A stretch of 64,000 nt of DNA from Streptomyces sp. NBC_01304 (GTDB taxonomy: Bacteria > Actinomycetota > Actinomycetes > Streptomycetales > Streptomycetaceae), in assembly GCF_035975855.1 (NCBI RefSeq), contig NZ_CP109055.1, forward strand, positions 7,688,001-7,752,000. The letters run 5' to 3'. The position numbers were made by a program, and so were the translations under genes. The notes under the pieces are model-generated. The model saw nothing but the letters and a program-made list of their open reading frames with translations, was not told the DNA's origin and made no database searches. Shown one piece after another: positions 2,671-62,698 of this stretch (positions are counted from its first letter, which is position 1; each line of letters starts with the position of its first letter).

Positions 2671-3162
2671 GTGCCGACCCTGTACCTGACCTGCGGCCTT
2701 CCCGGCTCGGGCAAGACGACCCTGGCCCGCCGCATCGAGCGTGAGCGGGACGCGCTGCGGTTGACCGCCGACGAGTGGCTGTTCCGGCTGCACACCAAGG
2801 AGCGCGGCCCGGAGCTCGACAAGCACCGCGACCCGGTCGAGCAGGTCCAATGGGACGTCGCCAGGCGGGTGTTGGAGCTCGGCTGCAACGTGGTCGTCGA
2901 CTGGGGCCTGTGGTCCCGCGAGGAGCGGGACCACTACCGCACCGGGGCCCGCGAGCTCGGCGCCCGCGTCGTCCTGTGCGTACTCGATCCGCCGCGCGCG
3001 GAACTGGTGCGGCGCCTGACGGCGCGCAACGCCGCGCTGCCGCCGGGCACCTTCCGTATCGCCGAGGCCGAACTGGACGAGTGGGACGGGTGGTTCGAGC
3101 GCCCGACGGCGGCGGAACTCGCGCTGTTCGACCCCTACGAGGGGCTTGCCGGGCCCGCTTAG
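2671..3162 (+). CDS. AAA_33-type P-loop kinase-like ATPase
   Basis: 163 residues from a GTG start. GLPGSGKTTLARRIE is a canonical Walker A, and VVVDWGLWSREERDHYR is the strand and basic helix seen in zeta-toxin or chloramphenicol-phosphotransferase-like small kinases. It is predicted to phosphorylate a small molecule using ATP; the substrate is unknown. The TAG stop is built from the junction with the MITE-like element at 3162, so the original C-terminus may have been different. Confidence 0.8.
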   Translation: MPTLYLTCGLPGSGKTTLARRIERERDALRLTADEWLFRLHTKERGPELDKHRDPVEQVQWDVARRVLELGCNVVVDWGLWSREERDHYRTGARELGARVVLCVLDPPRAELVRRLTARNAALPPGTFRIAEAELDEWDGWFERPTAAELALFDPYEGLAGPA

Positions 3163-3269
3163 AGCCTGTTTCTGAACCCCCGTCGTCCGCGCGGAGCGCG
3201 GGCGCAGCGCCGTGCGGTGAGAGTGCGTGCCGGGCGTCGGGGCGCAGGCGGGGGTTCAGAAACAGGCTC
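3162..3269. mobile_element. MITE-like element with 21-bp terminal inverted repeats
   Basis: A 108-bp sequence begins GAGCCTGTTTCTGAACCCCC and ends with its exact reverse complement. It is flanked on both sides by the trinucleotide TTA (3159-3161 and 3270-3272), which looks like a target-site duplication. The interior is GC-rich, itself partly palindromic, and encodes nothing. It separates two convergent genes and could also work as a bidirectional terminator. Ends of the GAGCCTGTT type resemble IS5-group elements from memory, but no transposase is present here. Confidence 0.7.
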
Positions 3270-3788
3270 TTAGGCCCCGACGGTTCCGTCCACCCCTTCT
3301 CGCAGAAGGTCGGCGTGGCCGTTGTGCCGCGCGTACTCGTGGATGAGGTGCAGCATGATGAGGCGCAAGGACACGTCCCCGCCCCACTTGGGGAAGTGCA
3401 CGGTGGCATCGAGGGACTCGGCCGCCTGCTCGATCCGGCGGGCCTGCTCGACCTCCGCCTCCCAGGCCGCGAACGCCTCCGCACGGGTCGACTCCGAGGC
3501 GTCGTACGCCGCTTGGAAGTCCCCGCTGTCCGACCACACGTGCGAGATGTCCTCGCCGTTGATCACTCGGCGGAACCAGTGCCGTTCCACCTCGGCCATG
3601 TGCCGCACCAGGCCGAGCAGCGAGAGCGTCGACGGCGGCATGGTTTGTTTGCGGAGCTCCTCGTCGCCGAGGCCCTCGGTCTTCATGGCGAGCGTCGCGC
3701 GGTGGTAGTCGAGATAGGCGCGCAGCGTCTCGCGCTCGTCGCCTGTGCGGGGCGGGTCGATGCGGATGTCGGGGATGTCCATGGCCAT
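3270..3788 (-). CDS. DinB-family (DUF664/mycothiol transferase-like) protein
   Basis: 172-residue four-helix-bundle protein. Visible are the helix LLGLVRHMAEVERHWFRR with a metal-ligand His, and LIMLHLIHEYARHNGHADLLRE with two further His residues, the HxxxH pattern of DinB/YfiT enzymes. Actinobacterial members include mycothiol-dependent S-transferases that handle thiols and electrophiles. The start is ATG 3788, or ATG 3782, which has GAGG 8 nt upstream. It follows the PPOX gene by 4 bp, so the two are co-transcribed. Its TAA stop is the TTA duplication beside the MITE-like element. Confidence 0.8.
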   Translation of the reverse strand: MAMDIPDIRIDPPRTGDERETLRAYLDYHRATLAMKTEGLGDEELRKQTMPPSTLSLLGLVRHMAEVERHWFRRVINGEDISHVWSDSGDFQAAYDASESTRAEAFAAWEAEVEQARRIEQAAESLDATVHFPKWGGDVSLRLIMLHLIHEYARHNGHADLLREGVDGTVGA

Positions 3789-7659: not shown

Positions 7660-7690
7660 GGCGGCAACTTACAGCGAGGTCTCTCTTCTT

Positions 7691-7843
7691 CCCCCGCCCC
7701 GCCCCTTCCCGAAATCCTGCGGAGCTGTGTCCTCAAACGCCGGACGGGCTGATTCATCGCTGATGAATCAGCCCGTCCGGCGTTTGAGGACAGTCTTTTC
7801 AAGCCGACGGCAGTCCTACGGGAAGGGGCGGGGTGGGGGAAAA
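7691..7843. repeat. Nested-palindrome repeat, copy A
   Basis: Outer arms: a CCCCGCCCCTTCCCG-type sequence at 7691-7711 pairs with its complement at 7819-7840. Inner arms of about 30 bp (7729-7791) contain CAAACGCCGGACGGGCTGAT and its complement, with almost no loop. The copy ends 4 bp before the SDR stop. It fits a strong rho-independent-like terminator or a small mobile palindrome. Confidence 0.9.
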
Positions 7844-7847
7844 GTAG

Positions 7848-8739: not shown

Positions 8740-10380
8740 ATGACACCCGCAGCGCACACATCCGGCCACCGCAGGGACGCCGAACTCCGGGCCGCCGCAC
8801 GCCATTTGGGGCGCCGGCGCTTTCTGACCGTGACCGGAGCGGCGGCAGCGCTGGCCTTCGCCACTAACCTGCCAGGTATGGCGCATGCCGCAGAAATGGA
8901 TGCCGCCCGGATCGCCGAGGACCCCTTCACGCTCGGGGTCGCCTCGGGGGACCCGCTGCCCGGCAACGTGCTGCTGTGGACGCGACTCGCCCCACAGCCC
9001 TACGCACCCGACGGCGGGCTGCCCGCCGAGCGGGTCACCGTCCAATGGGAGCTCGCACACGACGAGCGCTTCCGGCGCATCGCCAGACGCGGCTCCGTCA
9101 CCGCGCACCCCGAGTTCGCGCACTCGGTGCACGTCGAGGTCGACCACCTCGGCGAGGACCGCGTCTACTTCTACCGCTTCCGCACCGGCAGCTGGATCAG
9201 CCCGGTCGGCCGTACCCGCACCGCGCCCGGCCGCGGCGACCACAGCAGCGAACTCACGCTCGCCGCGGTCTCCTGCCAGGCGTACCACGACGGCTACTAC
9301 ACCGCGTACAAGCACCTGGCCGGTGACGACGTCGACGTGGTCTTCCACCTCGGCGACTACCTCTACGAGTACGCCGTGAACGCGGTGGGCGGCGCCCGCA
9401 ACTACACGGACCGCACCCTGCCCGCGCACTACAACCGGGAGACGGTGACGCTGGAGGACTACCGGATGCGGTACGGCCTCTACAAGTCCGACCCCGACCT
9501 GAAGGCCGCGCACGCCGCACACCCCTTCGTCGTCACCTGGGACGACCACGAGGTCGAGAACAACTACGCGAGCGGCATCCCCGAGAACGACGTACCGCCC
9601 GAGCAGTTCCTGCTGCGCCGGGCCGCCGCCTACCGCGCGTACTGGGAGAACCAGCCGCTGCGCCGCCGGCAGGCGCCCGAGGGCGCGGACGCGCAGCTCT
9701 ACCGCCGACTGCACTGGGGCAGGCTCGCCCAGTTCGACATCCTCGACACCCGCCAGTACCGCTCCGACCAGGCGTACGGCGACGGTGCGCACATACCCGG
9801 GCCCGAGTCCGACGACCCGGCGCGCACCCTCACCGGCGCGACCCAGGAGCGCTGGCTCCTCGACGGCTGGCACTCCTCGCGGGCCCTGTGGAACGTCGTC
9901 CCGCAGCAGGTCACCTTCGCCCAGCGCCGCCTGGACCTGAACGCCCAGGCGAAGGTCAGCATGGACGCCTGGGACGGCTACCGGGCCTCGCGCGACCGGA
10001 TCCTCGCGGGGGCCGCGGCGATCGGCATCGAGAACCTGATGGTCCTCACCGGGGACGTGCACGTCGGGTACGCCTTCGACATCAAGCAGGACTTCGACGA
10101 TCCGGCGTCGCGGACGGTCGGCACGGAGATCGTGGCGACGTCGATCTCGTCCGGGAAGGACGGGGCGGACAAGCCGGCCAACTGGGACACGTACATGCGG
10201 GCCAACCCGCACATGAAGTTCTACAACGGCCGTCGCGGCTATGCGGTCGTCACGCTGGGCCTCGAGCAGGCGCGGGCGGACTTCAAGACGGTTTCGGCGA
10301 TCACGTCGCCGGGGGCGCCGATCGCCACCGCGGCGTCGTTCGTGACGGAGGTGGGCGATCCGGGGCTGAAGCCGGTTTAG
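8740..10380 (+). CDS. phoD: Secreted alkaline phosphatase, PhoD family
   Basis: 546 residues. A long Tat signal ([27 protein letters not shown]) is followed by [23 protein letters not shown], the PhoD N-terminal domain. The metallophosphatase core shows [23 protein letters not shown] and [11 protein letters not shown], which bind calcium and iron in characterised PhoD enzymes. It is exported folded and releases phosphate from organic phosphodi- and monoesters outside the cell. Start ATG 8740 follows GAGGGG. A candidate PHO box lies upstream. Its stop abuts repeat copy B. Confidence 0.93.
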
Positions 10381-10513
10381 TCCCCACCCCGCCCCTTCCC
10401 GAAATCCTGCGGAGCCTTCCGCCCTCCGGGCGGTGTCCTCAAACGCCGGACGGGCTGATTTATCAGCCCGTCCGGCGTTTGAGGACTTTCGGGAAGGGGC
10501 GGGGTGGGGAAAC
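10381..10513. repeat. Nested-palindrome repeat, copy B
   Basis: It begins at the base after the phoD stop. The outer arms read CCCCACCCCGCCCC on the left and GGGGCGGGGTGGGG on the right, so the A in one arm is matched by T in the other. The inner arms (about 10435-10487) are perfect, with the CAAACGCCGG version of the stem. It also carries the internal small hairpin GCCCTCCGGGC. Confidence 0.92.
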
Positions 10514-15518: not shown

Positions 15519-15525
15519 TTCATCC

Positions 15526-15626
15526 GCTCCCCGCCCCTTCCCGAAATCCTGCGGAGCTTTCCGCCCTCCGGGCGGTGTCCTCAAGCGCCGGACGGGCTGA
15601 TTCATCAGCCCGTCCGGCGCTTGAGT
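15526..15626. repeat. Nested-palindrome repeat, copy C (right arm missing)
   Basis: The left outer arm and complete inner stem are present with the CAAGCGCCGG/CCGGCGCTTG variant; the right outer arm is absent. It fills the gap between two convergent stops (15518 and 15630), as a terminator would. Confidence 0.88.
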
Positions 15627-23838: not shown

Positions 23839-23972
23839 CTTAACTGAGCCTTACCTCCGTGATACCCCCACGTCCAGTGATTCAGCTCTCACTGGGACAC
23901 CTGTAATTCGCGGTGATCACGGCTTGGCCACGGGGGCCTCAAGCGCGGGTCAAGCTGGGGTCAAGTGATCAT

Positions 23973-24099
23973 TTCCCCGCCCCGCCCCTTCCCGAAAGTC
24001 CTGCGGACGGCTTCAAAGATGTCCTCAAGCGCCGGACGGGCTGATTTATCAGCCCGTCCGGCGCTTGAGGACTTTCGGGAAGGGGCGGGGCGGGGAAAA
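23973..24099. repeat. Nested-palindrome repeat, copy D
   Basis: Complete copy: outer arms CCCCGCCCCGCCCCTTCCCG and complement; inner arms with the CAAGCGCCGG/CCGGCGCTTG variant and a tiny loop. It ends one base before the hmuV-like TAG. With the iron box, it fills the 300-bp gap between the hmu and efe operons. Confidence 0.93.
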
Positions 24100-30866: not shown

Positions 30867-30988
30867 CTTCAAAGATTGTCCTCAAGCGCCGGACGGGCTG
30901 ACAAAGTCAGCCCGTCCGGCGCTTGAGGACACCGCCCGCAGGGCGGAAAGCTCCGCAGGATTTCGGGAAGGGGCGGGGTGGGGGAAAA
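30867..30988. repeat. Nested-palindrome repeat, copy E (left arm missing)
   Basis: The inner stem (CAAGCGCCGG variant), then the CCGCCCGCAGGGCGG hairpin and CTCCGCAGGATT joint, then the right outer arm CGGGAAGGGGCGGGGTGGGG, reverse-oriented relative to copies A-C. It sits between convergent stops at 30850 and 30995. Confidence 0.9.
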
Positions 30989-34729: not shown

Positions 34730-36166
34730 TCAGCCGCCCTCGGTGCTGGTCAGGTCGCCCTCCGCCGGGTGGGTGCGGCCCGGTCCCGGGAGTACCCGGC
34801 GGACACCCGCGTACGAGAGGCGGGCGTCGAAGCGGCCCTTGACGGAGTAGATCAGGCCGAACGGGTTCCACATCCGACGTATCAACTCGCGGCCTATCTC
34901 GCGTAGTTGGAAGCCCGCCGTGACCTCGCCGGACAGGAACGCCGGGAAGAACTCCCCGGCGTGGAAGGCCGCGAGCTCCTTGGGCAGGACGACCTCGGGA
35001 GCCACCGCGCAGGACGCGCCGAGCCCCACCAGTGCCTCGCCCACCGAACCGCCGCCCGGCGAGGTGAAGTCGCCGCTGCGGCACACGCTCAGATACAGCA
35101 GCGGGCTGCCCAGGAGGTGGGCCCGGCCGCAGAGGGCGTGCAGGGCGGCCTCGTCGCCGGGGCCGCCCGCGATGCCGTCGTAGACGTCGGACAGCTGGAA
35201 GTGGTGCATGTCCGGCTCCGCCGAGCGCATCACGAACTGGGCGGTGCCCGAGCCGTTCACCCGGCCGTGGCAGCAGATGTAGACGACGTGCCGGTCGAAG
35301 GTGTCGGCGTGCAGGAGCCGCTTGAAGGCCTCCGCGTCGGTACAGGTGGTGAGCTCCGTGAGGCCCTGGAGCCGGCCCAGGAAGTCCCGGTGGGACTGCG
35401 GCAGGCCGGTGTCCACGACCGCTCCCGCGAGCGGCCGCTCCTGCGCCACCTGGATCTTGGCGGACACCGACTCGCACCACTCGTCGCCACGGTGCTCGAT
35501 GAGATGCCGGTAGCCCCAGAAACGGGCGCCCCACTGCTCGGGCGTGGTGTCGTACCGGGTGCGCGCCAGGTCCCCGGCGTCCGGCAGGCACAACAGGGCC
35601 CAGGGGGCGGCCAGTTGGTTGGACCAGATCGTCATGACGCACTCGCGCTCGCGCAGCAGCCGCACCAGCTCCTTGACCAGGAGACCCATCCTGATGTGGT
35701 CGAAGTGCGGCGCGAACATGGTCCGGAACGCGGCCCGGCCCGCGAACACCAGATTCTGGAAGATCCGCGAGATGACCGAGGGCTCGACCTGGCTGAGGTC
35801 CACCTGGGTGTCGAGGCGGAACGGCTTGGCCGGGCTGCCGTTCGCCGGCTTGTAGACGCTGGCCGGCAGGTCACCGGCGGCGGTCTCGTCCCAGGTGTTC
35901 CGCAACTCGCCTGCGCCGCCCCGGACTTGCCTGCCCAGGACGGAGTCGGCCACCAGCGCCTCCTTGCCGGGGACGAGGAGTGCGTACGTATAACGGAGCG
36001 GTTCCTCGCTGTCGTCGTCCTTCCAGCCGCGGATCACCAGGTTCAGGTCGCGCGGCTGGGCCACCGCGAAGTGCTCGGGCCGCAGGTCCTGCGGCGGCGG
36101 ACCCTTGCGCTCCGTGATCGGCAGGAGGAGTTCGTCGACGGATAAGTCGTCATGTTGGTAACTCAT
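34730..36166 (-). CDS. CHAT-domain caspase-like protease
   Basis: 478 residues. The CHAT fold (caspase-like cysteine peptidase) is marked by HVVYICCHG (catalytic His300) and LLYLSVCRSGD (catalytic Cys362) after hydrophobic strands, with LGASCAVAPEVVLP and AFHAGEFFPAFL as later family segments. The N-terminal 250 residues contain NLVIRG, YALLVPGK and a helical MGLLVKELVRLLREREC part, not a recognised family. CHAT proteases cleave partner proteins in bacterial immunity. Its start overlaps the STAND gene by 17 bp, so the sensor and protease are translated together. Confidence 0.87.
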   Translation of the reverse strand: MSYQHDDLSVDELLLPITERKGPPPQDLRPEHFAVAQPRDLNLVIRGWKDDDSEEPLRYTYALLVPGKEALVADSVLGRQVRGGAGELRNTWDETAAGDLPASVYKPANGSPAKPFRLDTQVDLSQVEPSVISRIFQNLVFAGRAAFRTMFAPHFDHIRMGLLVKELVRLLRERECVMTIWSNQLAAPWALLCLPDAGDLARTRYDTTPEQWGARFWGYRHLIEHRGDEWCESVSAKIQVAQERPLAGAVVDTGLPQSHRDFLGRLQGLTELTTCTDAEAFKRLLHADTFDRHVVYICCHGRVNGSGTAQFVMRSAEPDMHHFQLSDVYDGIAGGPGDEAALHALCGRAHLLGSPLLYLSVCRSGDFTSPGGGSVGEALVGLGASCAVAPEVVLPKELAAFHAGEFFPAFLSGEVTAGFQLREIGRELIRRMWNPFGLIYSVKGRFDARLSYAGVRRVLPGPGRTHPAEGDLTSTEGG

Positions 36167-39100
36167 GGGTGCCCCCCATTTCCAGCTGCAGTTCGACCTC
36201 CTGCAGCAGCGTGCCGCCCGACTCGTTGAGCACCAGGAAGCGCAGCTCCTGGAGGCCCGGCCCGTCCCGCTCGACCTTGAACTCCGCGCGCAGCGGCCAC
36301 TCCAGGGACGCCGGATCGAGGATCCGCGCGTCCGGCATCACCCGTGCGTGCGGGGCCATCGCGAGCAGTCGGCACTTGCCCTGCTCGCCCGCCTGTTGGA
36401 GCGTGCGCTGCAGCTGGAGCGCCAGGTAGACGGAGACCCGCAGATTGGCCTTGGTGCCGACGTGCACCGGCTCGCCGGGCTTGGCCGAGGGCACCAGGTG
36501 CACGCTCACGTGGCAGGGCGACTCCGGTCCGGGATCCATCGGGAGGATGCCCTTCGGTGCCGACGCCCCGGCATTCCCCGAGCTCCCGGCATTCCCCGAG
36601 CTCCCCGAGCTCCCCGAGCTCCCCGAGCTCCCCGAGCTCCCCGAGCTCCCCGAGCTCCCCGAGCTCCCCGAGCTCCCCGAGCTCCCGGAACTCCCGGAAC
36701 TCCCGGAACTCCCCGAAGGCGTCGCCGTCCCCGAGGCCCCGGCTGTCCCCGCTGTCTCAGGAGCCCCAGCCGTCCCCGCAGTCCCCGCGGGCCCTGCGGA
36801 TCTGGCCGTCCCCGAGGCCCCGGCCGTCCCCGCCGTCTCTGGAGCCCCAGCTACCCCTGCCGTCTCCGCGGACCCTGGAGTCCCCGCCATCCCTGAGGAC
36901 CCCGCGCCCCCGGCCGTCCCTGCCGTCGCTGGAGCCCCAGTTACCCCTGCAGTCCCCGCTACCCCTGCCGTCCCCGCAGCCCCCGCCTCCCCATCGAGCG
37001 CCGCCAGTTCACGCATCGCCCCGGCGTGCGCCAGCCGGTCGCCGCACACCTCGAACTCTCGGGCCGCCCGCTCCCGCACCGCCCGTACCCCCGTCGCGCC
37101 CGGCAGGAACGACCGCTCGTACTGCGCCCAGGCGACCCCGAGGCGGTTGCCCATCTCCGTGAAGCGCTGCTCCGCGAGCCGCAGTGCGTCGCCGGCCGTC
37201 TGCTCGGAGCCCAACTCGCGGTGGCAGCGCCCCAGTTCCAGGCTCGCCCAGCCCGCCCCCAGCGGCTCGTTCAGGCCGTTGTGGGCATCGCGGCTGAGCC
37301 GGAGCCGCGTCAGGGCGTCCGTCCGGTCGCCGCCGCGCCAAAGGAGCCGGCCCCGCACCAGCTTCGCCCACGCCGCGCCGTACGCGTCGGCGGTGCGGTC
37401 GAAGCCCTGCTCCGCCACGGCCAGCTCGGTACGCGCACCGTCCAACTCGCCACGCAACAGCAGGCAGTTGGCGAGGAACACCCGGGCCCAGGCCTCGCCC
37501 CGCACATTGACGTGCTCGCGGTGCAGCGTGGCGCTGCGCCGCAGGGTCTCCTCGGCCACGCCGAGTCTGCCCTTGTCGCAGTACACGGCGCCGAGTACCC
37601 GTAACACCCAGGCCTGTTCGTCGCACCGCTGCTCCTGTTCGAGCAGCTCCGCCGACCGCCGCAGATAGCGCACCGCGGTCCTGAGTTCCCCCTTGTGATA
37701 GAGCGTCACCCCTATCTGGCGCAGCGCCTTGGCCTCGTCCACGGTGTCCCCGTTCTCGGCATATTGGTCCCGGACCCACTGCAGCCGCCGCCGGGACTCG
37801 TCGAGATGCCCCTCCTTGCGGTCGAGGATGCCGAGTGACATCTGCACGGCGGGCTCCACGATCCGCCGTACGTCGTCGTCGAAGTCGTCGACGACGGTGT
37901 GGAGCATCGCGAGGCTGAGCCGTTCCCGCAGCTGCACCAGCGCGTCGCACAGATCCGCCGCGACCTCGCCGACCCGCTCCGGCGAGTCCTGGCCCGCGCG
38001 CCGGAGGGTCTCCAGGAGGGTGCCCTTCTCGGTCTGCAGCCACTGCGCCACATCCGCCGGGTTGGCCCGCGCGGGACCGGTCGCCACCTCGGTGCCGACC
38101 AGCGGCTGCACGGTGGCGACGAGCCGGCGGAACTCGTTGAACAACTGCTGCTGGGCGGCGGCCCCTTGATAGGGCCCGCCGTGCGCCTGGTGCAGCGACA
38201 GCTGGCGGGCCGAGAAGCGCTGCACGGACGGGCTCAGCCGGTACCGGCAGTCCTCCTCCGGTTCGAGCAGCCCGCGTCGGGCCAGCGAGCGGAGCAGCCC
38301 CTCCGCCTCGTCCCGCGCCACCTGCTCGGAGGAGGCGCGGCCGTTGCCGGGCAGGGCCCGCAGGGTCGCGGCGAACAGCGCGTTCACCGTCGACCGGGTG
38401 GACAGGGAGAGGAGTTGGAACAGGCCGCGCTCGTCGTCGGACAGGTCCTCGTGCACCCAGCGAAGCAGTTTCCCGGTGATGTCCTCGTGCCGGGCGCCGA
38501 GCGGGGCGGCCCGGTCGATGCGCCGGGCGACCTCGCTCGCGTCCCACTCCGGGTGCGCGCCGTAGATCCCGGCGGCCAGCTTGAGCGCGAGCGGCCGTCC
38601 GTCGCAGGCGTCGACGAGTTCCCGTACCTGACCGGGTTCCGGGGAGCGCGGCGTGGCGGCCCTGCGGAAGATCGCCTCGCTCTGTGCGCGGTCCGGGCCC
38701 TGCACCGCGAACTGCGCGACCCGCAGATCCCCCGAGTCCACCGACAGCGGCCGCCGGGTGGACGCGATCACCAGGGTGTTCCGGCCGCCGGGAAGCAGCG
38801 GCGGAATCTGCCGCCAGCTCTCCACCTCGTCGAGCAGCAGCACGACCCGCGGGCCCTCGGTCAACTCCTGGTACAGCAGCTGCAGTTCCTCGTCGCCCAG
38901 CTTCCACGGCTGGGCCACATCGGCCTTCAGGTCGCGCAGCAGTTCCATGAAGTCGTAGCGGTGCCCGGTCCGCCCCGGGTTCAGTCGCATCTCCAGGCGC
39001 AGCGCGTCACTCTCGTCCTCGTCCGGGCCGATGAGTGCCTTGGCGATCCGGTCGGCGAGGGTGAACTTCCCGATCCCGGGCGCACCCCACAGGACGAGCA

Positions 39101-39170
39101 CGCCAGGCCCGCTCGCGAGCAGCCTGCGCGCAGTGTTCAGCGCAGAGTCGGGCAGCTCTGGACTCGCCAT
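36150..39170 (-). CDS. STAND NTPase with TPR repeats and collagen-like tract
   Basis: 1006 residues. NB-ARC-like ATPase at the N-terminus ([15 protein letters not shown] as Walker [12 protein letters not shown] as Walker [20 protein letters not shown] GxP region), winged helix, then a run of TPR-like helices (about 420-720). Residues about 727-875 are Gly-X-Y repeats, including 13 GSS units in a row. The last 110 residues form a beta-rich domain ([30 protein letters not shown]). ATG 39170 follows GGGGGTGCGGC. The P-loop has Phe where Thr is usual. It probably senses a signal and controls the CHAT protease downstream. Confidence 0.85.
36540..36990 (-). repeat. 9-bp-period Gly-X-Y coding repeat in the STAND gene
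   Basis: On the plus strand the unit CCCGAGCTC is repeated back to back about 13 times near 36587-36715, and degenerate units ([12 protein letters not shown] triplets) continue to 36990. Because the unit is a multiple of three, length change would add or remove whole Gly-X-Y triplets without a frameshift. Confidence 0.95.
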
Positions 39171-42342: not shown

Positions 42343-42468
42343 GCGACGGGGCTCCTGGGGTGGGGCGGTCGTACGGCGGGGGCGTGCCCGACCGTACCCG
42401 GCATATCGGGGGAACGTGGGGTGTTCGGGCGCGAGTTCCCTCGCATCCGTGTCGGGGACAATGGGCCG

Positions 42469-45400
42469 GTGCGCTACTGCTTGCTCGGCCCCACCCAGGC
42501 CCTCCGACCCGACGGCACGGCCGTCCCCGTCGGCGGGGCACGGCTGCGTGCGCTGCTCACGGTGCTCGCACTGCGGGCCGGGCGGACCGTGCCGGTCACC
42601 CAGCTCGTGGACGAGGTGTGGGACGGGGATCCGCCGGCCGACGCGACGGGTGCGCTGCAGGCGTTGATCGGGCGGCTGCGGCGTTCGCTCGGGCATGGCG
42701 CGGTGGACTCCGTCGAGGGCGGCTACCGGCTGTGCGCGTCACCGGACGACGTGGACGTCCACCGCTTCGAGCGCCTCGCCACCGAGGGCGGGCGGGCGCT
42801 GGCGGACGGCGATCCGGTCAAGGCCTCGGCCGTCCTGGACGAGGCCCTCGCGCTGTGGCACGGGCCCGCCCTGGCCGACCTGCCGGACCGGCTCGCGGAG
42901 GCCGCGCGCTGGGAGACCCGCCGCCTGGACGCCCGCCGCACCCGCCTCGCCGCGCTCCTCGCCCTGGGGCGGGCCTCGGAGGTGCTGCCCGAGCTGGGGG
43001 CGCTGTGCGATGCGCACCCGCTGGACGAGCCGTTGCAGGTGTTGCGGTTGCGGGCCCTGCGCGGCGCCGGCCGTGCGGCCGAGGCGTTGGCGGGGTTCGA
43101 GGAGGTACGGGCTCTGCTCGCGGACCGGTTGGGTGCGGACCCTGGCCCCGAACTCCGCTCTCTGCATGCCGAGTTGCTTTCCCCCGCCCCGCCCCTTCCC
43201 GAAAGTCCTGCGGACGGCTTCGGGGGCTTCGCCCCCGGACCCCCTTTGTCCTCAATCGCCGGACGGGCTGAAGAAGCGAGGCCTGATCAATCAGCCCGTC
43301 CGGCGATTGAGGACGCGCCCGGAGGGCGCAAAGCTCCGCAGGATTACGGGAAGGGGCGGGGCGGGGAAAAGATCGGCAACCTCCGAGCCCGCCTCACCAG
43401 CTTCGTGGGTCGCGAGGCCGACATCGAGGCCATCCGCGCAGACCTGAGCCGCGCCAGGCTCGTCACGATCCTCGGCCCCGGCGGCGCTGGAAAGACCAGG
43501 CTCTCGCAAGAGGCAGCGGAAGAACTGCCGGTGCCGGACGGCGCCTGGCTCGCCGAACTCGCCCCGGTCAGCGCCGACGCCGACCCGGAGGCCATCCCGG
43601 AGGCGATCCTCACCGCCCTGGGCGCCCGCCAGACCGTTCTCTTCGGCGCGGGCGCGGAAGAGCTCCGCCAGGCAGGCGACCGCAGCGCCGACGACCCGAT
43701 GACACGCCTCACCGAGCACTGCGCACGCCGCCGCATGCTCCTCCTGCTCGACAACTGCGAGCACGTCGTCGAGGCGGCCGCCCGCGTCGTCGACCACCTC
43801 CTGGCCCACTGCCCCGGCCTCACCGTGCTGGCCACGAGCCGTGAACCCCTGGGCGTACCGGGCGAGTTGGTCCGCCCCCTCGACCCGCTGCCCGAGCCCG
43901 CGGCCCTGCGCCTGTTCGCCGAGCGCGGCGCCGCCGCACGCCCCGATTTCCGGATCGAGGACGACCCGGCGGCCGCCGCGGAGATCTGCAGCCGCCTCGA
44001 CGGACTCCCGCTCGCCATCGAACTGGCCGCGGCCCGGCTGCGGATGCTCACCCCCCGCCAGATCGCCGACCGCCTCGACGACCGCTTCCGCCTGCTCACC
44101 AGCGGCAGCCGCACCCTGCTGCCGCGCCAGCAGACCCTGCGCGCCGTCGTCGACTGGTCCTGGGACCTCCTCGACGAGCCGGAGCGCGCGGTGCTGCGCC
44201 GGCTCTCCGTCTTCTCGGGCGGGAGTGACCTCGCGGCGGCGGAGGCGGTATGTGGGGGTGCTCCGATAGGAGGAGGGCGTGCTGCCGAGCTCACGGGGCT
44301 CCGCCCCGGACCCCCCAGTCGCCCTTCGGGCTCGTCCTCAAACGCCGGACGGGCTGATTCTGCCCCGGATGCCCCGGATGCCCCGGATGCCCCGGATGCC
44401 CCGGATGCCCCGGATGCCCCGGATGCCCCGGATGCCCCGGATGCCCCGGATGCCCCGCACGCCCCGCACGGCGACCCCGCCTGCCACGCCCACCTGTTCG
44501 TCGACCGCCGCGACATCACCGACCTGCTCGGCTCCCTCATCGACAAGTCCCTTGCGGTGGCCGTGCCTTCGACCGGTGGCGAGATGCGCTACCGGCTCCT
44601 GGAGACCGTCGCCGAATACGCGGGGGAGCGGCTCGACGAGTCCGGTGACCGGGACGCCGCCGAGCGCGCCCACCTGGTGCACTACCGGGAGTTCGCCCGC
44701 CGCGCCGACCCCGAGCTGCGCGGGTCCGGGCAGCAGGCCGCGATCGAGCGGATCGAGGTCGAGTACGAGAACCTGCGCACCGCCCTGCGCCGCGCCACCG
44801 CCGCCCGTGACGAACACGAGGCGCTCTGCCTCGTCCTGTCGCTGTGCTGGTACTGGCAGATGCGCGACCAGCGCACCGAGGCCCGCTACTGGGCCACCGC
44901 CGCCTCCGCGCTAGGCCCCGACCCCTTCGCACCCCCGGCCCGCCAGGCCCCGCCGCTGCGCGAGCGGTGCACGGACGCGCCGCCGCCCATGGCCGAGGAC
45001 CAGCTGTGGGAGGCCAGGCGCGGCTGTGCCCTGATGCAGCTGGCCACCATGGACCACACGAGCGACGACTGGACCGGGGCCAAGAGCATGGAGCGGCTGC
45101 AGTGCATCGTCGACACCTACCGGCCCGGGTTGCCGCAGACCTGCTGGGTGCCCGGCTCGTTGTGGTTCTTCGCGGTGCTGCTCACCAGTGGTACGACCGA
45201 CATCCGGACGATGCTCGACGCGACCGTGGACGCCTGCCGCGAGTACGGCTACCGCTGGGAGCTGGCCGCAGCCCTGCAGATGCGGGCCAATGTGCTGGCC
45301 AACCGGAGCGACTGGGCCGGTGAGGCGGACCGGGACGCGGACGCCGCGCTGGAGATCTTCCACGAGCTCGGCGATGCCTGGGGCGTGGCCGAGGCGCTGT

Positions 45401-46128
45401 CCGCCCGTGGTGAGGCCCTGGAGCGGCGCGGTGAATTCGTGCGCGCGGGCGAGGACTTCAGGCAGGGCATGGACCACGCGGAGCGGATCGGCGCGGCCAC
45501 TCAGGCAGCGGTCCTCAAGGCGCGGTACGCGGGCATCCTCCTGGAGACGGGCGAGGGCGAGACGGGCGAGCGTCTGCTCCGCGAGGTGGTCGCCGACCAG
45601 GACTCGGCCGCCAACGAGGCGCTGCCGGCGGCCCGGATGTATCTCGCGCTGTGGCTCGGCCGTACCAATCGCGGACCCGAGGCACGGGAGCAACTGGAGC
45701 AGATGCGGGACCAGTTCCGCTCCGGCCCCGCGGTGATGTTCGAGGGCTTCGTCCTCGGTCTGCTCGCCTGGCTGGACAACATGGAGGGCAAGCACGAGCT
45801 GGCGCTCGAGCATGTGCGGGCCGGTGTGGAGCGCGCTGTCGATCCGCTGTCCCTGATGATCGCGCCGTATCTGCCGACGGTTCAACTGACCAATGCCGCC
45901 TGGGCGTTGGCAGGATCCCGCGGGCCGGAAGGCGCCCTGCTCGGCGCCCGGTGCCTGGGTGCTGCCGACACGCTGCTGCCCGAGGGCCACTTCGCCGCCC
46001 CGCAGGAACGCGAGAACCGCGCGATGGCCGAGGCGGCCGTGCGCGCGGAGCTCGACGAGGCGACGTACGACAGTGCGTACGCACAAGGCGGCGGCCTCTC
46101 CCTGGAAGAGGCCGCCGCGTTGTTCTGA
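42469..46128 (+). CDS. AfsR/SARP-like BTAD regulator interrupted in frame by two repeat copies
   Basis: 1219 residues: winged-helix DNA-binding domain (1-90), BTAD (95-235), STAND ATPase (LGPGGAGKTRLSQEAA, LLLLDNCEHVVEAA, TSREPLGV, GLPLAIELAAARLRML) and C-terminal TPRs. Residues about 237-301 are the translation of repeat copy F (PAPPLPESPADGFGGF... GGRKAPQDYGKGRGGEK), in the linker between BTAD and ATPase. Residues about 608-631 are partial copy G, followed by ten APD and two APH triplets. The ORF stays open throughout. GTG 42469 gives the standard N-terminus. It probably activates secondary-metabolite or stress genes. Confidence 0.9.
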   Translation: MRYCLLGPTQALRPDGTAVPVGGARLRALLTVLALRAGRTVPVTQLVDEVWDGDPPADATGALQALIGRLRRSLGHGAVDSVEGGYRLCASPDDVDVHRFERLATEGGRALADGDPVKASAVLDEALALWHGPALADLPDRLAEAARWETRRLDARRTRLAALLALGRASEVLPELGALCDAHPLDEPLQVLRLRALRGAGRAAEALAGFEEVRALLADRLGADPGPELRSLHAELLSPAPPLPESPADGFGGFAPGPPLSSIAGRAEEARPDQSARPAIEDAPGGRKAPQDYGKGRGGEKIGNLRARLTSFVGREADIEAIRADLSRARLVTILGPGGAGKTRLSQEAAEELPVPDGAWLAELAPVSADADPEAIPEAILTALGARQTVLFGAGAEELRQAGDRSADDPMTRLTEHCARRRMLLLLDNCEHVVEAAARVVDHLLAHCPGLTVLATSREPLGVPGELVRPLDPLPEPAALRLFAERGAAARPDFRIEDDPAAAAEICSRLDGLPLAIELAAARLRMLTPRQIADRLDDRFRLLTSGSRTLLPRQQTLRAVVDWSWDLLDEPERAVLRRLSVFSGGSDLAAAEAVCGGAPIGGGRAAELTGLRPGPPSRPSGSSSNAGRADSAPDAPDAPDAPDAPDAPDAPDAPDAPDAPDAPHAPHGDPACHAHLFVDRRDITDLLGSLIDKSLAVAVPSTGGEMRYRLLETVAEYAGERLDESGDRDAAERAHLVHYREFARRADPELRGSGQQAAIERIEVEYENLRTALRRATAARDEHEALCLVLSLCWYWQMRDQRTEARYWATAASALGPDPFAPPARQAPPLRERCTDAPPPMAEDQLWEARRGCALMQLATMDHTSDDWTGAKSMERLQCIVDTYRPGLPQTCWVPGSLWFFAVLLTSGTTDIRTMLDATVDACREYGYRWELAAALQMRANVLANRSDWAGEADRDADAALEIFHELGDAWGVAEALSARGEALERRGEFVRAGEDFRQGMDHAERIGAATQAAVLKARYAGILLETGEGETGERLLREVVADQDSAANEALPAARMYLALWLGRTNRGPEAREQLEQMRDQFRSGPAVMFEGFVLGLLAWLDNMEGKHELALEHVRAGVERAVDPLSLMIAPYLPTVQLTNAAWALAGSRGPEGALLGARCLGAADTLLPEGHFAAPQERENRAMAEAAVRAELDEATYDSAYAQGGGLSLEEAAALF
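43178..43371. repeat. Nested-palindrome repeat, copy F, inside a coding region
   Basis: Complete copy with both outer arms. The inner stem carries the CAATCGCCGG/CCGGCGATTG variant, a third compensated version of the pair, with a 19-nt loop. It adds about 65 codons in frame to the BTAD regulator. Confidence 0.95.
44290..44360 (+). repeat. Nested-palindrome repeat, half copy G, inside a coding region
   Basis: The left side of the inner stem (CTCAAACGCCGGACGGGCTG) with its upstream GGCTCCGCC-type joint is present; the other arm is missing. It is translated as TGLRPGPPSRPSGSSSNAGR and runs straight into the APD repeats. Confidence 0.85.
44362..44469 (+). repeat. 9-bp coding repeat (APD/APH triplets)
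   Basis: GCCCCGGAT is repeated ten times in a row (44362-44451), followed by GCCCCGCAC twice. It encodes an acidic Ala-Pro-Asp linker ending in two Ala-Pro-His, between the ATPase and TPR parts of the regulator. Confidence 0.95.
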
Positions 46129-46185
46129 CCGGTGCCACAGACGCGATCCGTTCGGCGCCGGATCAGGTCTGGGGGTTGGCGCCCA

Positions 46186-47018
46186 TCAGCTCTTGTTGGT
46201 GAACTTGCGGATGGCGATCGGCGCCATGACCACGGTGAGTCCGACCGTCCAGGCCAGCGTCACGATCAGGCCGTGCTGGATCGGGCCGCCGACCATCAGG
46301 CCGCGGGCCGCGTCGGCGAGACCCGACATCGGGTTGTACTTGGTGAAGGACTCCAGCCAGCCCGGCATCGACTGGGTCGGCGCGAAGATCGACGAACCGA
46401 ACTGCAGCGGCATCATCACCAGGAAGCCCATGGCCTGCACCGACTGGGCGTTCTTCATGGTCACACCGAGCACCAGGAAGATCCACATCACGGCCGAGCC
46501 GAAGAGGGTGGACAGGCCTACCGCGGCGAACAGACCGGCCCAGTTGGTGAAGTCGAAGCCGACCAGTGCGGCGACGATCATCAGGACCGTGGTGGCGATG
46601 AGCATCCGCAGGAGCTCCACCGAGATCTTGGCGATCAGTACGGAGCCCCGTCCGATCGGCAAGGACCGGAAGCGGTCCATGATGCCCTTGTGGAAGTCCT
46701 CGTTGAAGCCGGTGCCGACTCCCTGGGCGATGTTCATGCTCATCATCGCCAGCATGCCGGGGATCACGTACTGGATGTACTGGTCCTGGCCGCCGCCGAG
46801 CGACTGGCCGATGGACCCGCCGAAGACGTACACGAACAGCAGGGTGAAGACGACCGGCATCAGGATGGCGTCGAACATCGACTCCGGGTCGTTCTTGATC
46901 CACAGCAGATTGCGGCGGACCAGGGCTCCGGTGTGCCGGAGGTTGGCGCGCAGGCCGATCTTGCCGTCGGCCTGGCCCTTGCGGAGGGCGGGCGCGTCGA
47001 GCGTGGGGGTGGCGGTGC

Positions 47019-49296: not shown

Positions 49297-50892
49297 ATGA
49301 CTTCGCCTGCCAACCCGTCCGCGCCCGCCGCGCCGCGGATACCCGAAGCCGTGCATCGCCGTCGCTGGGCGATCCTCGGTGTGCTGATGCTCAGCCTCCT
49401 GATCGTCGTCCTCGACAACTCGATCCTCAATGTCGCCATCAAGACGATCTCGACCCCGGCGCCGACCGGCCTGGGCGCCACCCAGAGCGAGCTCGAGTGG
49501 GCCATCAACGCCTACACCCTGGTCTTCGCCGGCCTGCTCTTCACCGCCGGACTCCTCGGTGACCGCCTGGGGCGCAAGAAGGTGCTCCTCGCCGGAATGG
49601 TCGTCTTCGGCATCGGCTCGATGCTCGCCGCCGAGTCCGGCTCACCGGTCCAACTCATCGTGTTCCGCGCCGTGATGGGCTTCGGCGCCGCCTTCGTCAT
49701 GCCCGCGACGCTTGCCGTGCTCATGCACGTCTTCGAGCGCGAGGAGCAGCCCAAGGCCATCGGCATCTGGGCGGGCGGTGTCGGCCTCGCCATCGCGATC
49801 GGGCCCATCACCGGCGGTGTGCTGCTCGACCACTTCTGGTGGGGCTCGGTCTTCCTGATCAACGTGCCGATCGTGCTGATCGCGATCGCGCTGATGATCT
49901 GGCTGGTCCCCGACTCCCGCGACCCGAAGCCGGGCCGGCTCGACCCGGTCGGCGTGGTCGTCTCGGTGATCGGCCTGGTCCTGCTGGTCTACGGCATCAT
50001 CAAGGGCGGCCAGCTCGCCGACTTCACCGACACCACGGTGCTCGCCACGATCGCGGCGGGCGTCGCGGTCCTCGTCGCCTTCGTGATCTACGAGAAGCGC
50101 AGCGACCACCCGTCCATCGACGTCACGTACTTCAAGAACAAGGTGTTCTCGGCGGCGATCAGCACCATCTCGCTGGTCTTCTTCGCGCTGATGGGCGTGA
50201 CGTTCTTCGCCGTCTTCTACACGCAGAGCGTGCGCGGCTACAGCCCGCTGCAGACCGGCCTGCTGATGCTGCCGCTCGCCGTCGCCCAGCTGATCTTCTC
50301 GCCGCGGGCACGACTCGTCGTGGACCGCTTCGGCAACCGCGCGGTGTGCACGGCGGGGATGGTGACCATCGCCGCGACGCTCGCGGCGTTCGCGACGCTG
50401 GACGCGGACACGCCGATCTGGCTCCTGGAGGTCATCTTCTTCCTGATGGGCGCGGGCATGGCGCACATCATGACGCCGACCTCCGTGGTCATCATGCAGG
50501 CGCTGCCGCGCGAGAAGGCGGGCTCGGCGTCGGCCCTCAGCAATACGTTCCGTCAGGTGGGCGGGGCGCTGGGCATCGCGGTGCTCGGCTCGGTGCTCTC
50601 CACGGCGTACCGCTCGGACATCGAGTCCAGCCTCGGCGGGGTGCCGGCCGAGCTGCGGCACACCGCGGGCGAGTCGATCGAGGCGACCCTCGGCGTCGCG
50701 GAGAAGCTGCACCAGCCCGGGCTTGTGGTACCGGCTCAGGACGCGTTCCTGCACGCCATGCACGTAACCGCGTTGTGGGGCGCGGGAGTTGCGGTGATCG
50801 GGGCGATTGTGGTCGCGCTGTTCTTGCCGGGGCGGGCTCCGGCGGCCCCGGAGGCGGAGGTCGAGCGGGAGTCGGTGGGGGTCAAGGACTAG
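49297..50892 (+). CDS. DHA2 (EmrB/QacA) family MFS drug exporter
   Basis: 531 residues, 14 predicted membrane helices. [14 protein letters not shown] in helix 1 is the DHA2 motif D1, [11 protein letters not shown] is motif A, and [14 protein letters not shown] plus [23 protein letters not shown] is the motif C region. It exports drugs with protons. A palindrome upstream and a TetR gene downstream point to ligand-induced expression. The stop codon is followed by repeat copy H. Confidence 0.92.
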
Positions 50893-51058
50893 TCCCCTAC
50901 CCGCCCCTTCCCGAAAGTCCTCAAACGCCGGACGGGCTGATTTCATCAGCCCGTCCGGCGTTTGAGGACGAGGCCGAAGGCCGTGATCCGGGCAGGGGTC
51001 CGGGGGCGGCAGCCCCCGAGGTGCCGTCAGGCTTTCGGGAAGGGGCGGGGCGGGGGAG
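50893..51058. repeat. Nested-palindrome repeat, copy H
   Basis: Starts directly after the MFS stop. The left outer arm is shortened (CCCGCCCCTTCCCG); the inner stem is the CAAACGCCGG version; a long right joint containing GGTCCGGGGGCGGC precedes the full right arm CGGGAAGGGGCGGGGCGGGG. It separates the MFS gene from its TetR gene. Confidence 0.9.
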
Positions 51059-51104
51059 ACAATCCCCCTGAGCAGCAACGCACCCGCAGACACAGGAGAG
51101 GCGC

Positions 51105-60734: not shown

Positions 60735-61564
60735 CGTCCTCCTTTGTTCGCATCGGTGGAGTGCCGCACCACGTGGTGCTGGAGGGAAGCGGGCCCCCGT
60801 GCGTGCTGTCCGGCGGGCTCGGCATGGCGTGGTTCGACTGGGACGCGGTGGCCGCGCTCCTCGCTCCGCACCGGACGGTGATCCGCTTCGACCGTCCCGG
60901 GCTCGGGCTCAGCGGGCACGCGCGCGTGGCGCCCTCTTTGACCGGGGAGGCCGACCGGATCCTGCGGGTCCTGGACGCGTGCGGGGTGTCCGGGCCCGCG
61001 ACCGTCGTCGGGCACTCCCTGGCCGGCTTCCACGCCGAGGCCTTCGCCCGGCTGCATCCCTCGCGGGTCGCCGCCCTTGTGCTGGTCGACTCCAGCGTCG
61101 AGGAGGGGGCGCGACCCCGGCCTGCCCCGGCCCTGCGCACCGGTGCGGCTCGGCTGGCCGCCGGGGCGTTGAGCGCTGCGGGGTTGCCGTGCGCGGTCGG
61201 GCCTTTGCTGCGTCGGGCCGCGGTTCGGGCTTCCCGTACGGGGGGTGGGGATCCGGCTCCGTACGAGCTGGTGCGGAGGGTGTATGGGACCAGTCGGTCG
61301 ATGCGGGCTCTGCTGGTGGAGAACGCGCGCTATCGCGATCTGGCGGCGGAACTCGTCTATGTCAGGCGGCAGTTCGAGCTTCCTCGTGGAGTGCCGGTGA
61401 CGGTGATCGCGGCGGGGGAGGGGCGGCGGTGGCTCGAGCGGCAGGCTCGGCTCGCCGTTGCGCTCGGCGCGGAGTTGCGGATTTCCAGTGGGTCGGGGCA
61501 TTTGGTCATGTTTGACCGGCCGGGGGATGTGGCTTCTGCTGTGTTGTGGCCTCGGGCCGGGTGA
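60731..61564 (+). CDS. Alpha/beta-fold hydrolase
   Basis: 277 residues. GRGP-like oxyanion area (VLSGGLGMAWFDW), VIRFDRPGLGLSG, nucleophile elbow VVGHSLAGFHAEAF, acid in the LVDSS/VTVIAAGE area, and His in ISSGSGHLVMFDRPGDV. No signal peptide. It is paired with a DUF998 membrane protein, so it might act at the membrane. The substrate is unknown. The last 80 codons show more G-rich third positions than neighbours. The stop abuts repeat copy I. Confidence 0.88.
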   Translation: MTSSFVRIGGVPHHVVLEGSGPPCVLSGGLGMAWFDWDAVAALLAPHRTVIRFDRPGLGLSGHARVAPSLTGEADRILRVLDACGVSGPATVVGHSLAGFHAEAFARLHPSRVAALVLVDSSVEEGARPRPAPALRTGAARLAAGALSAAGLPCAVGPLLRRAAVRASRTGGGDPAPYELVRRVYGTSRSMRALLVENARYRDLAAELVYVRRQFELPRGVPVTVIAAGEGRRWLERQARLAVALGAELRISSGSGHLVMFDRPGDVASAVLWPRAG

Positions 61565-61566
61565 TT

Positions 61567-61651
61567 TTCTCCCCGCCCCGCCCCTTCCCGAAATGCTGCG
61601 CAGCCTTCCGCCCTGTGGGCGGTGTCCTCAAACGCCGGACGGGCTGATTCA
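61567..61651. repeat. Nested-palindrome repeat, copy I (left half)
   Basis: Left outer arm CCCCGCCCCGCCCCTTCCCG, the joint CCTTCCGCCCTGTGGGCGG and the left half of the inner stem are present; the right half is missing. The TGA stop of the LacI gene is the TGATTCA of the stem, so the LacI gene ends inside the element. Confidence 0.88.
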
Positions 61652-62698
61652 TGCCGGCGGCAACCGGCGCACGCTGTCCCGCACCACGATGTGCGTGCCC
61701 AGCACATGCCGCTCCTGGGAAGTCCGCGTCGTGCCCTCCAGGGCGAGCCGGACCGCCGTGCGGCCCAGCGCCTCGCCGGGAATGTGGATCGTGGTCAGGC
61801 CCGGCGTGACGTCGGACGCGACCGGGTCGTCGTTGTAGCCGGCCACCGAGATGTCGTCCGGCACCCGCAGCCCGTACTCGGACAGCGCCCGGATCGCCGC
61901 GGCCGCCACCTGGTCGTCACCCGCGAAGATCGCCGTGAACTCGGGCTTGCCGTCGCACTGTTCGAGCAGCTGGCGGATCGCGTGATAGCCGTGCTCGCCC
62001 CCGAAGCCGACGCCCACCTGAAGGGCCGGTTCCGGCGTGATGCCGTGGTCGGTGAGGGCCCGCTGGTAGCCGCGCACCCGGGCCTCGCCCGTGGTGTTGC
62101 CCGGGCGGTAGCCGATCAGGGCTATCCGGCGGTGGCCCGCGCCCAGGAGATGGCTGGTGATGGCGTACGCGCCCGCCTCGTTGTCGTACTCGACGACGAG
62201 GGCAGGGACATGGGGCGCGGGGGCCGGGCGCCCGACCAGGACCAGGCGGGACCCGGCGGCCGCGAGCAACTCCGCGTACCGGGACATCCGCTGGCGGTAC
62301 TCCTCGTCCTCGATCACGCCGCCGACCAGCAGGACCGCCTCCGCGGCCTGTTCCCGCATCATCTCCACGATGGCCAGCTCACGGGCCGGATCGGCGTCCG
62401 TCGAGAACATCATGCAGAGCCGGCCCCGCTTCGCCGCCTCCCGCTCCACGCCCTGCGCGATATGGGCGTAGAACGAGCTGACCACGTCCAGGACGAGCAC
62501 CGCGACCGTCTTGCGGCCCGCCCCCGCGAGCGCCCGCGCATGCGCGTTCACCACGTAGTCCAGGTCCTTCGCGGCCCGCTGCACCTTGGCCCGGGAGGCC
62601 GCCGAGGTCGGATAGTTGCCGGCCAGGACGCGCGACACGGTCGCTACCGAGACCCCGGCCCGTGCCGCCACATCCCGGATGGTGACCCGCTCGCCCAC
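61649..62698 (-). CDS. LacI-family transcriptional regulator
   Basis: 349 residues. HTH: VTIRDVAARAGVSVATVSRVLAGNYPTSAASRAKVQRAAKDLDYVVNAHARAL, the hinge and the sugar-sensing Periplasmic-binding-like domain (VLVLDVVSSFYAHIAQG, FTAIFAGDDQVAAAAIRALSEYGLRVPDDISVAGYND). It represses genes until its sugar binds, probably including the sugar-binding protein gene next to it. GTG 62698 has GGGGG about 8 nt upstream. Confidence 0.92.
   Translation of the reverse strand: MGERVTIRDVAARAGVSVATVSRVLAGNYPTSAASRAKVQRAAKDLDYVVNAHARALAGAGRKTVAVLVLDVVSSFYAHIAQGVEREAAKRGRLCMMFSTDADPARELAIVEMMREQAAEAVLLVGGVIEDEEYRQRMSRYAELLAAAGSRLVLVGRPAPAPHVPALVVEYDNEAGAYAITSHLLGAGHRRIALIGYRPGNTTGEARVRGYQRALTDHGITPEPALQVGVGFGGEHGYHAIRQLLEQCDGKPEFTAIFAGDDQVAAAAIRALSEYGLRVPDDISVAGYNDDPVASDVTPGLTTIHIPGEALGRTAVRLALEGTTRTSQERHVLGTHIVVRDSVRRLPPA

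Follow-up and report, generated by a model that had tools for sequence, protein, structure and literature searches.

Within a 64,000-nucleotide stretch of the genome of Streptomyces sp. NBC_01304 (hereafter the window), a gene specifying an AfsR/SARP-type regulator contains a complete copy, F, and a half copy, G, of a palindromic repeat, both read in frame. We assigned the gene on the basis of its translation, its Pfam matches and the names of its homologues, which among the best 120 of 7123 matches are mostly annotated as AfsR/SARP or BTAD regulators. The encoded protein consists, in order, of a winged helix, a BTAD domain, an AAA/NB-ARC-like ATPase and a C-terminal region. The features of the gene are as follows.

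42469..46128, plus strand: AfsR/SARP-type regulator gene, 1219 aa, GTG start
43178..43372, plus strand: complete copy F of the palindromic repeat, read in frame as roughly residues 238-302, between BTAD and ATPase
43178..43204, plus strand: left terminal inverted repeat of F, encoding ..PAPPLPE (repeat family D8)
43248..43271, plus strand: left arm of the central 24-bp stem of F, encoding SSIAGRA (from sequence and fold)
43291..43314, plus strand: right arm of the central 24-bp stem of F, encoding SARPAIED (from sequence and fold)
43344..43370, plus strand: right terminal inverted repeat of F, encoding YGKGRGGE (repeat family D4)
44295..44360, plus strand: half copy G of the repeat, likewise read in frame (roughly residues 610-631) and separating the ATPase from the C-terminal part
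44361..44466, plus strand: 9-bp minisatellite GCCCCGGAT, translated (APD)n, directly 3' of G (repeat family D2)

An earlier note on this DNA had reported that the regulator stays open across F and the half copy G, and this is a real observation: the plus-strand frame from 42469 to 46128 comprises 1219 codons and a stop, with no interruption. The note had also placed and sized the two in-frame additions correctly (by our count about 65 residues for F and about 22 for G), leaving some ten APD units uncounted; these GCCCCGGAT units, at 44361-44466, form a slippage-prone minisatellite adjoining the decayed repeat G. Its statement that the inserts lie in linkers and leave the domains intact agrees with Pfam, which finds recognisable domains on both sides of the repeat. 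In the numbering of the 1235-aa ORF that begins at 42421, Trans_reg_C (43-92) and BTAD (111-253) precede F and AAA_16 (328-463) follows it, with NB-ARC (332-541) falling slightly under its cut-off (21.7 vs 23.5 bits). An AlphaFold model of the regulator, a rough guide only because its mean pLDDT is moderate (62.9), gives residues 247-303 a pLDDT below 50 and no secondary structure; across residues 11-240, 20 of 23 ten-residue blocks average a pLDDT of at least 80.

F is a long, almost perfect palindrome. Its 27-nt terminal inverted repeats are complementary at 25 of 27 positions and enclose a perfect 24-bp central stem (43248-43271 with 43291-43314) together with side hairpins. Folded as RNA, F reaches -156.2 kcal/mol; 200 dinucleotide shuffles give -90.9 +/- 4.8, which places F at z -13.6. 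The closest other copy in a set of 115 is 84% identical to F across 193 nt, while the four copies most like G share 88-90% identity with it, and G has mostly lost the structure (z -1.4).

A high-copy repeat at gene 3' ends

F and G belong to a palindromic repeat of Streptomyces with many copies, in which a long hairpin is enclosed by terminal inverted repeats some 27 nt long. This genome has 383 instances of the core 15-mer CGCCGGACGGGCTGA (backward control 1) and, over its 10.99 Mb, 91 of a terminal-repeat motif (backward control 0); both terminal motifs are present in 67 of the 115 copies, with 83-194 nt between them. A core 14-mer has 450 matches in this genome (control 6), the highest count among the 199 genus genomes sampled. 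The next-highest counts are 236, 193 and 175, and many genomes hold only a handful; the maximum among the 181 non-genus genomes in a class-wide sample of 197 was 13 (control 5). The family has therefore been amplified in some Streptomyces and, by exact motif, is unseen beyond the genus. The 91 terminal-repeat matches fall within 1.88-8.89 Mb of the 10.66-Mb contig, so the repeats apparently reside in the chromosome core rather than the arms. The following intergenic copies of the F-type repeat lie in the window.

7688..7844, no strand assigned: copy A
10380..10510, no strand assigned: copy B
15523..15625, no strand assigned: partial copy C, between convergent genes (own gene calls)
23971..24099, no strand assigned: copy D, both terminal repeats present
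30877..30988, no strand assigned: copy E, between convergent genes (own gene calls), left terminal repeat missing
50892..51059, no strand assigned: copy H
61563..61652, no strand assigned: partial copy I

Searched with Rfam at gathering score, the window gave RNase P RNA as its sole match and nothing at the repeats. That RNase P RNA is of class A and lies at 292-695.

To place the repeat relative to genes, we assembled a copy set from the 91 terminal-motif places, which fall in the window and 83 other stretches, and from 79 further places, which came from a search with the translated peptide of F and from the first 100 listed of the 383 core 15-mer places. The 192 distinct copies that had 900 nt or more of sequence to either side were then compared with gene calls from our own codon-usage caller, trained on 25 ORFs of the window. 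The repeat is usually found directly after stop codons and rarely inside genes: 184 of the 192 copies were called intergenic (73 convergent, 99 tandem and 12 divergent), a count that includes one copy in an acyl-CoA dehydrogenase gene because the caller missed that gene, and 143 of the 184 overlap a gene 3' end or lie no more than 20 nt from one. In the 115-copy set, the 109 placed copies are distributed 45/59/5 over convergent, tandem and divergent spaces, compared with 13/30/13 for adjacent gene pairs of the window; the convergent excess (p = 3e-5) and divergent deficit (p = 2e-7) are measured against a null of only these 56 pairs.

This habitat bears on a further proposal of the earlier note, that the hairpin terminates transcription and so yields a SARP-only product. 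F might act as a partial terminator or an mRNA-stability element that gives rise to a short SARP/BTAD-only protein beside the full regulator, as the family's preference for 3' ends and the complete hairpin retained in F would suggest. Moreover, in a 3'-end map of S. avermitilis, transcript ends are reported to carry GC-rich palindromes, accompanied by a U-rich motif in only about 25% (PMC8780764). F nevertheless has the hairpin of an intrinsic terminator and no U-tract site to follow it: in the 14 copies inspected, the repeat ends in GGGG then A with no U-run, and the sole terminator-like site in 42400-46200, a stretch for which chance predicts 0.8, lies at 46088-46118. F also has no in-frame stop, so that a transcript ending within it would be a non-stop mRNA; such a transcript should enter trans-translation, which makes a stable SARP-only protein unlikely, and translation itself should melt the hairpin. 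We consequently regard the short product as very unlikely, and this part of the note as unsupported. A weaker effect on the mRNA is possible, given where the family normally sits.

In-frame copies in other genes

Nine of the 192 copies are in frame, in eight genes of this genome. This proportion is no measure of an in-frame surplus, as the scan was built to detect open frames that span a copy, and the sample of copies is non-random, having been drawn partly by likeness to the translation of F itself; even so, eight of the nine were also recovered from the DNA motifs or from the window, the TraG-like copy alone depending on the peptide search. Eight copies lie inside called genes, and the ninth lies in the acyl-CoA dehydrogenase P0126, which we recognised from its coding pattern and a database protein. 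The hosts, with domains from Pfam, are as follows.

SARP/BTAD regulator: two copies, F and G
Branched-chain amino acid permease-ATPase ABC fusion P0002: insert between the two parts
CobB P0125: insert separating the CbiA domain from GATase_3
Acyl-CoA dehydrogenase P0126: insert after the N-terminal and before the C-terminal domain match
NuoE-NuoF-like fusion (2Fe-2S thioredoxin-like/Complex1_51K): insert in the linker
Amine oxidase, which we take to be protoporphyrinogen-oxidase-like: insert within a long Amino_oxidase match
TraG-D_C-like protein: Pfam score under the curated cut-off
Acyl-CoA carboxylase: short 43-nt repeat piece

Third-position GC is coding-like on both sides of the copies in the regulator, CobB, dehydrogenase, ABC and carboxylase genes. 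The four full copies in the first four of these genes share a single phase, which reads ..PPLPE..SARPA[IF]ED..APQD[FY]GKGR.., and the amine oxidase copy is translated in a different one. Among the 402 strand-phase readings of the 67 full copies, 32 are open and a whole number of codons long; the shared phase accounts for 22 of the 32, so its use in four full copies is unsurprising. By the same count, only about 8% of random landings inside genes (32/402) would keep the frame, suggesting that further insertions have probably been lost. Around nine copies squeezed between tandem genes we recognised no split gene. This is less firm for three of the pairs, in which one partner has no Pfam hit; another pair has TadE in common, with the whole profile present in each gene as it is in neighbouring paralogues.

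A subtype of the stem arm with ATTGAG is found in genes in three of five copies, compared with two of 99 for the others (p = 5e-4), a comparison made after the fact to which we attach no weight. The in-gene copies of this subtype are at G000:C1:8347877, 7731178 and 2337210.

The same linkers in relatives

Among the 120 listed homologues of the regulator, the linker that corresponds to F is 12-181 aa long (median 45), and most of these proteins have unrelated linkers. Because linker length varies in this way, with no fixed empty site, the status of F as an insert rests on its identity with the repeat. Nor did we find an empty site that would date F, the nearest of 391 other genus genomes being 79% identical in the gene's initial 710 nt. 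At the DNA level, 122 distinct orthologous linkers (from 134 loci, one of which lacks the N-terminal part, with identical linkers counted once) range from 33 to 720 nt and are divisible by three in 120 cases; none of the 122 carries the repeat. Rather than being a random draw, the loci comprise the 79 top-ranking named matches together with the top-ranking unnamed ones.

At the protein level, a diverged repeat peptide is present in the same linker of four of the 120 listed homologues (P0005, P0015, P0059 and P0088); none of 200 shuffles scored as high, and all four score with a margin over reversed peptides. P0060, a near relative of P0015, holds a more altered version that passed our first scoring and missed the stricter test. 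The earlier note had taken orthologues in which the segment has diverged as normal protein sequence to count against an insertion. Such divergence is in part what these four homologues exhibit, but we read the segment as a probable recurrent or old insertion followed by drift, and not as an ordinary, non-repeat linker. On a tree of 49 rows (without P0059), the carriers P0001, P0005 and P0015/P0060/P0088 require three changes, P0001 and P0005 being on long branches of unsure placement. This linker has therefore been hit more than once, or the repeat has been lost repeatedly.

Repeat-derived linkers recur in two of the other hosts as well. CobB has a match in 58 of 60 other genomes. Of the nearest 29 loci, all from other Streptomyces, 11 have a linker whose DNA resembles the repeat more closely than any of 100 codon shuffles, and 10 of the 29 contain a core or terminal motif without mismatch. 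Linkers of the ABC fusion are repeat-derived in two of 12 other loci (0 of 100 codon shuffles as high), the comparison comprising 13 loci of which one could not be parsed. In P0003, the fusion of Streptomyces sp. T-3, the insert sits at the same site as in P0002 and is in frame with a much-changed interior, which argues against a dead gene. The dehydrogenase copy, which lies mid-protein rather than in a domain linker, has no repeat counterpart in any of 29 relatives, most of which have a short turn at that site.

We considered whether the in-frame copies might be artefacts, through assembly error, a pseudogene, or chance likeness between the repeat and a low-complexity linker. In favour of this, the repeats have a high GC content, and in another Streptomyces genome the CobB linker (L262, genome G007) changes frame within the repeat. 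Against it speak the extent of the DNA identity between F and its closest copy, the stability of its fold and the coding GC pattern flanking the repeat on both sides. In addition, seven other host genes and the T-3 homologue tell the same story, and the genome, with completeness 100, includes the locus on a 10.66-Mb contig. An artefact is, in our estimation, scarcely credible. As to L262 itself, its switch of frame inside the repeat could equally be a sequencing error or a broken gene.

The presence of repeat-derived sequence in the same linkers of several species, together with the post hoc enrichment of the ATTGAG arm in genes, would also fit a domesticated peptide, useful for spacing, interaction or regulation and kept by selection. 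We think this improbable. The insert peptides vary freely in sequence and length, and the inner reading phase has apparently changed between P0088 and P0060; linkers are unrelated in most listed homologues, and the insert is disordered in the AlphaFold model.

Origin and relation to known repeats

Taken as a whole, the evidence makes it highly probable that a palindromic repeat of gene 3' ends has, through rare open-frame insertions, been tolerated in linkers and loops and has then drifted as disordered protein. In such a sequence of events, the repeat would insert and survive only where the frame stays open and the site is a linker or loop; surviving copies would be translated, and the added residues would act as a disordered linker that leaves the neighbouring domains undisturbed, making the insertion nearly neutral. 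Drift would follow by point change, in-frame insertions and deletions, and slippage, for which G with its APD minisatellite may be an example.

How the copies arrived is a separate matter. The repeat resembles MITEs, which span 70-300 bp, in its size and terminal inverted repeats. It differs from them in target duplication: judged from the flanks of the 45 copies that have both ends, 37 show no direct repeat of at least 2 nt and the other eight show one of 2-3 nt. This scarcity of flanking direct repeats, together with the loss of some residues found in relatives at the CobB and dehydrogenase insertion sites, makes it a reasonable though less favoured possibility that copies spread when repeats recombine ectopically or undergo gene conversion with one another, rather than by transposition. 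Against this, the host genes have no relation to each other and many relatives lack the repeat, so first arrival must be by insertion, and fast turnover of linkers could mask clean insertion scars.

In-frame palindromes are already known, in Rickettsia and, as short tagged REPs, in many bacteria, and the Streptomyces family is longer than the REPs and lacks the CGTC tag. Rickettsia RPE are described as hairpins of about 150 bp that lie in frame in many unrelated genes, their insertions being possibly fold-compatible (PMC10969869). The earlier note had likened the regulator inserts to these elements, and the likeness, a palindromic high-copy repeat in frame inside several unrelated genes, is strengthened by the seven further host genes of the same genome and by the diverged repeat that P0003 carries at the P0002 site. 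It is a likeness of behaviour, and there are differences: the host belongs to another phylum and has a large, high-GC genome, and the in-gene share is 9/192, whereas for RPE it is given as nearly half (PMC10969869).

The habitat is that of the GTAG/CGTC REPs. These elements lie by gene 3' ends, prefer convergent and tandem spaces and are in some cases in frame, as the Streptomyces repeat also is, and different REPs occupy about the same recB site in two related species (PMC3733652). In contrast to REPs, which are 20-40 nt long (PMC3733652), the Streptomyces copies have 83-194 nt between their terminal-repeat motifs; CGTC precedes only five of 169 stem arms in the 115-copy set and TGTC precedes 148. 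The words Streptomyces and Actinobacteria are absent from the main text of PMC3733652. Among the open-licence PMC papers listed, none described such a repeat in Streptomyces, which is weak support for the lack of an earlier description, and the passages of two Streptomyces RNA-seq papers contained none. Literature matches to the repeat's own letters were a primer and a paper on synthetic RNAs in bladder cancer; both were set aside.

With eight carrier genes in one Streptomyces genome, some of them for biosynthetic enzymes, and decayed versions at the same sites in other species, the family offers a culturable system in which to follow, and to test, how new segments of protein are inserted, tolerated and altered by drift, and an example of how repeat DNA may turn into protein linker sequence. 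It also serves as a warning that Streptomyces "linkers" and gene models may include repeat DNA. More speculatively, this one 3'-end family might repeatedly re-make interdomain linkers (SARP, CobB and ABC fusions) and so supply a large share of the new disordered sequence of the genus, a generalisation we think doubtful at present.

Two further repeats were observed in the window. A second 9-bp array, at 36542-36928, consists of CCGAGCTCC followed by CCGGAACTC and degenerate units and lies within a long minus-strand gene (36150-39101, own gene call). Between two convergent gene calls, at 3158-3273, is a pair of 44-nt inverted repeats, 77% complementary and 28 nt apart, with outer ends CTTAGAGCCTGTTTCTGAACC; the pair is unlike the F family.
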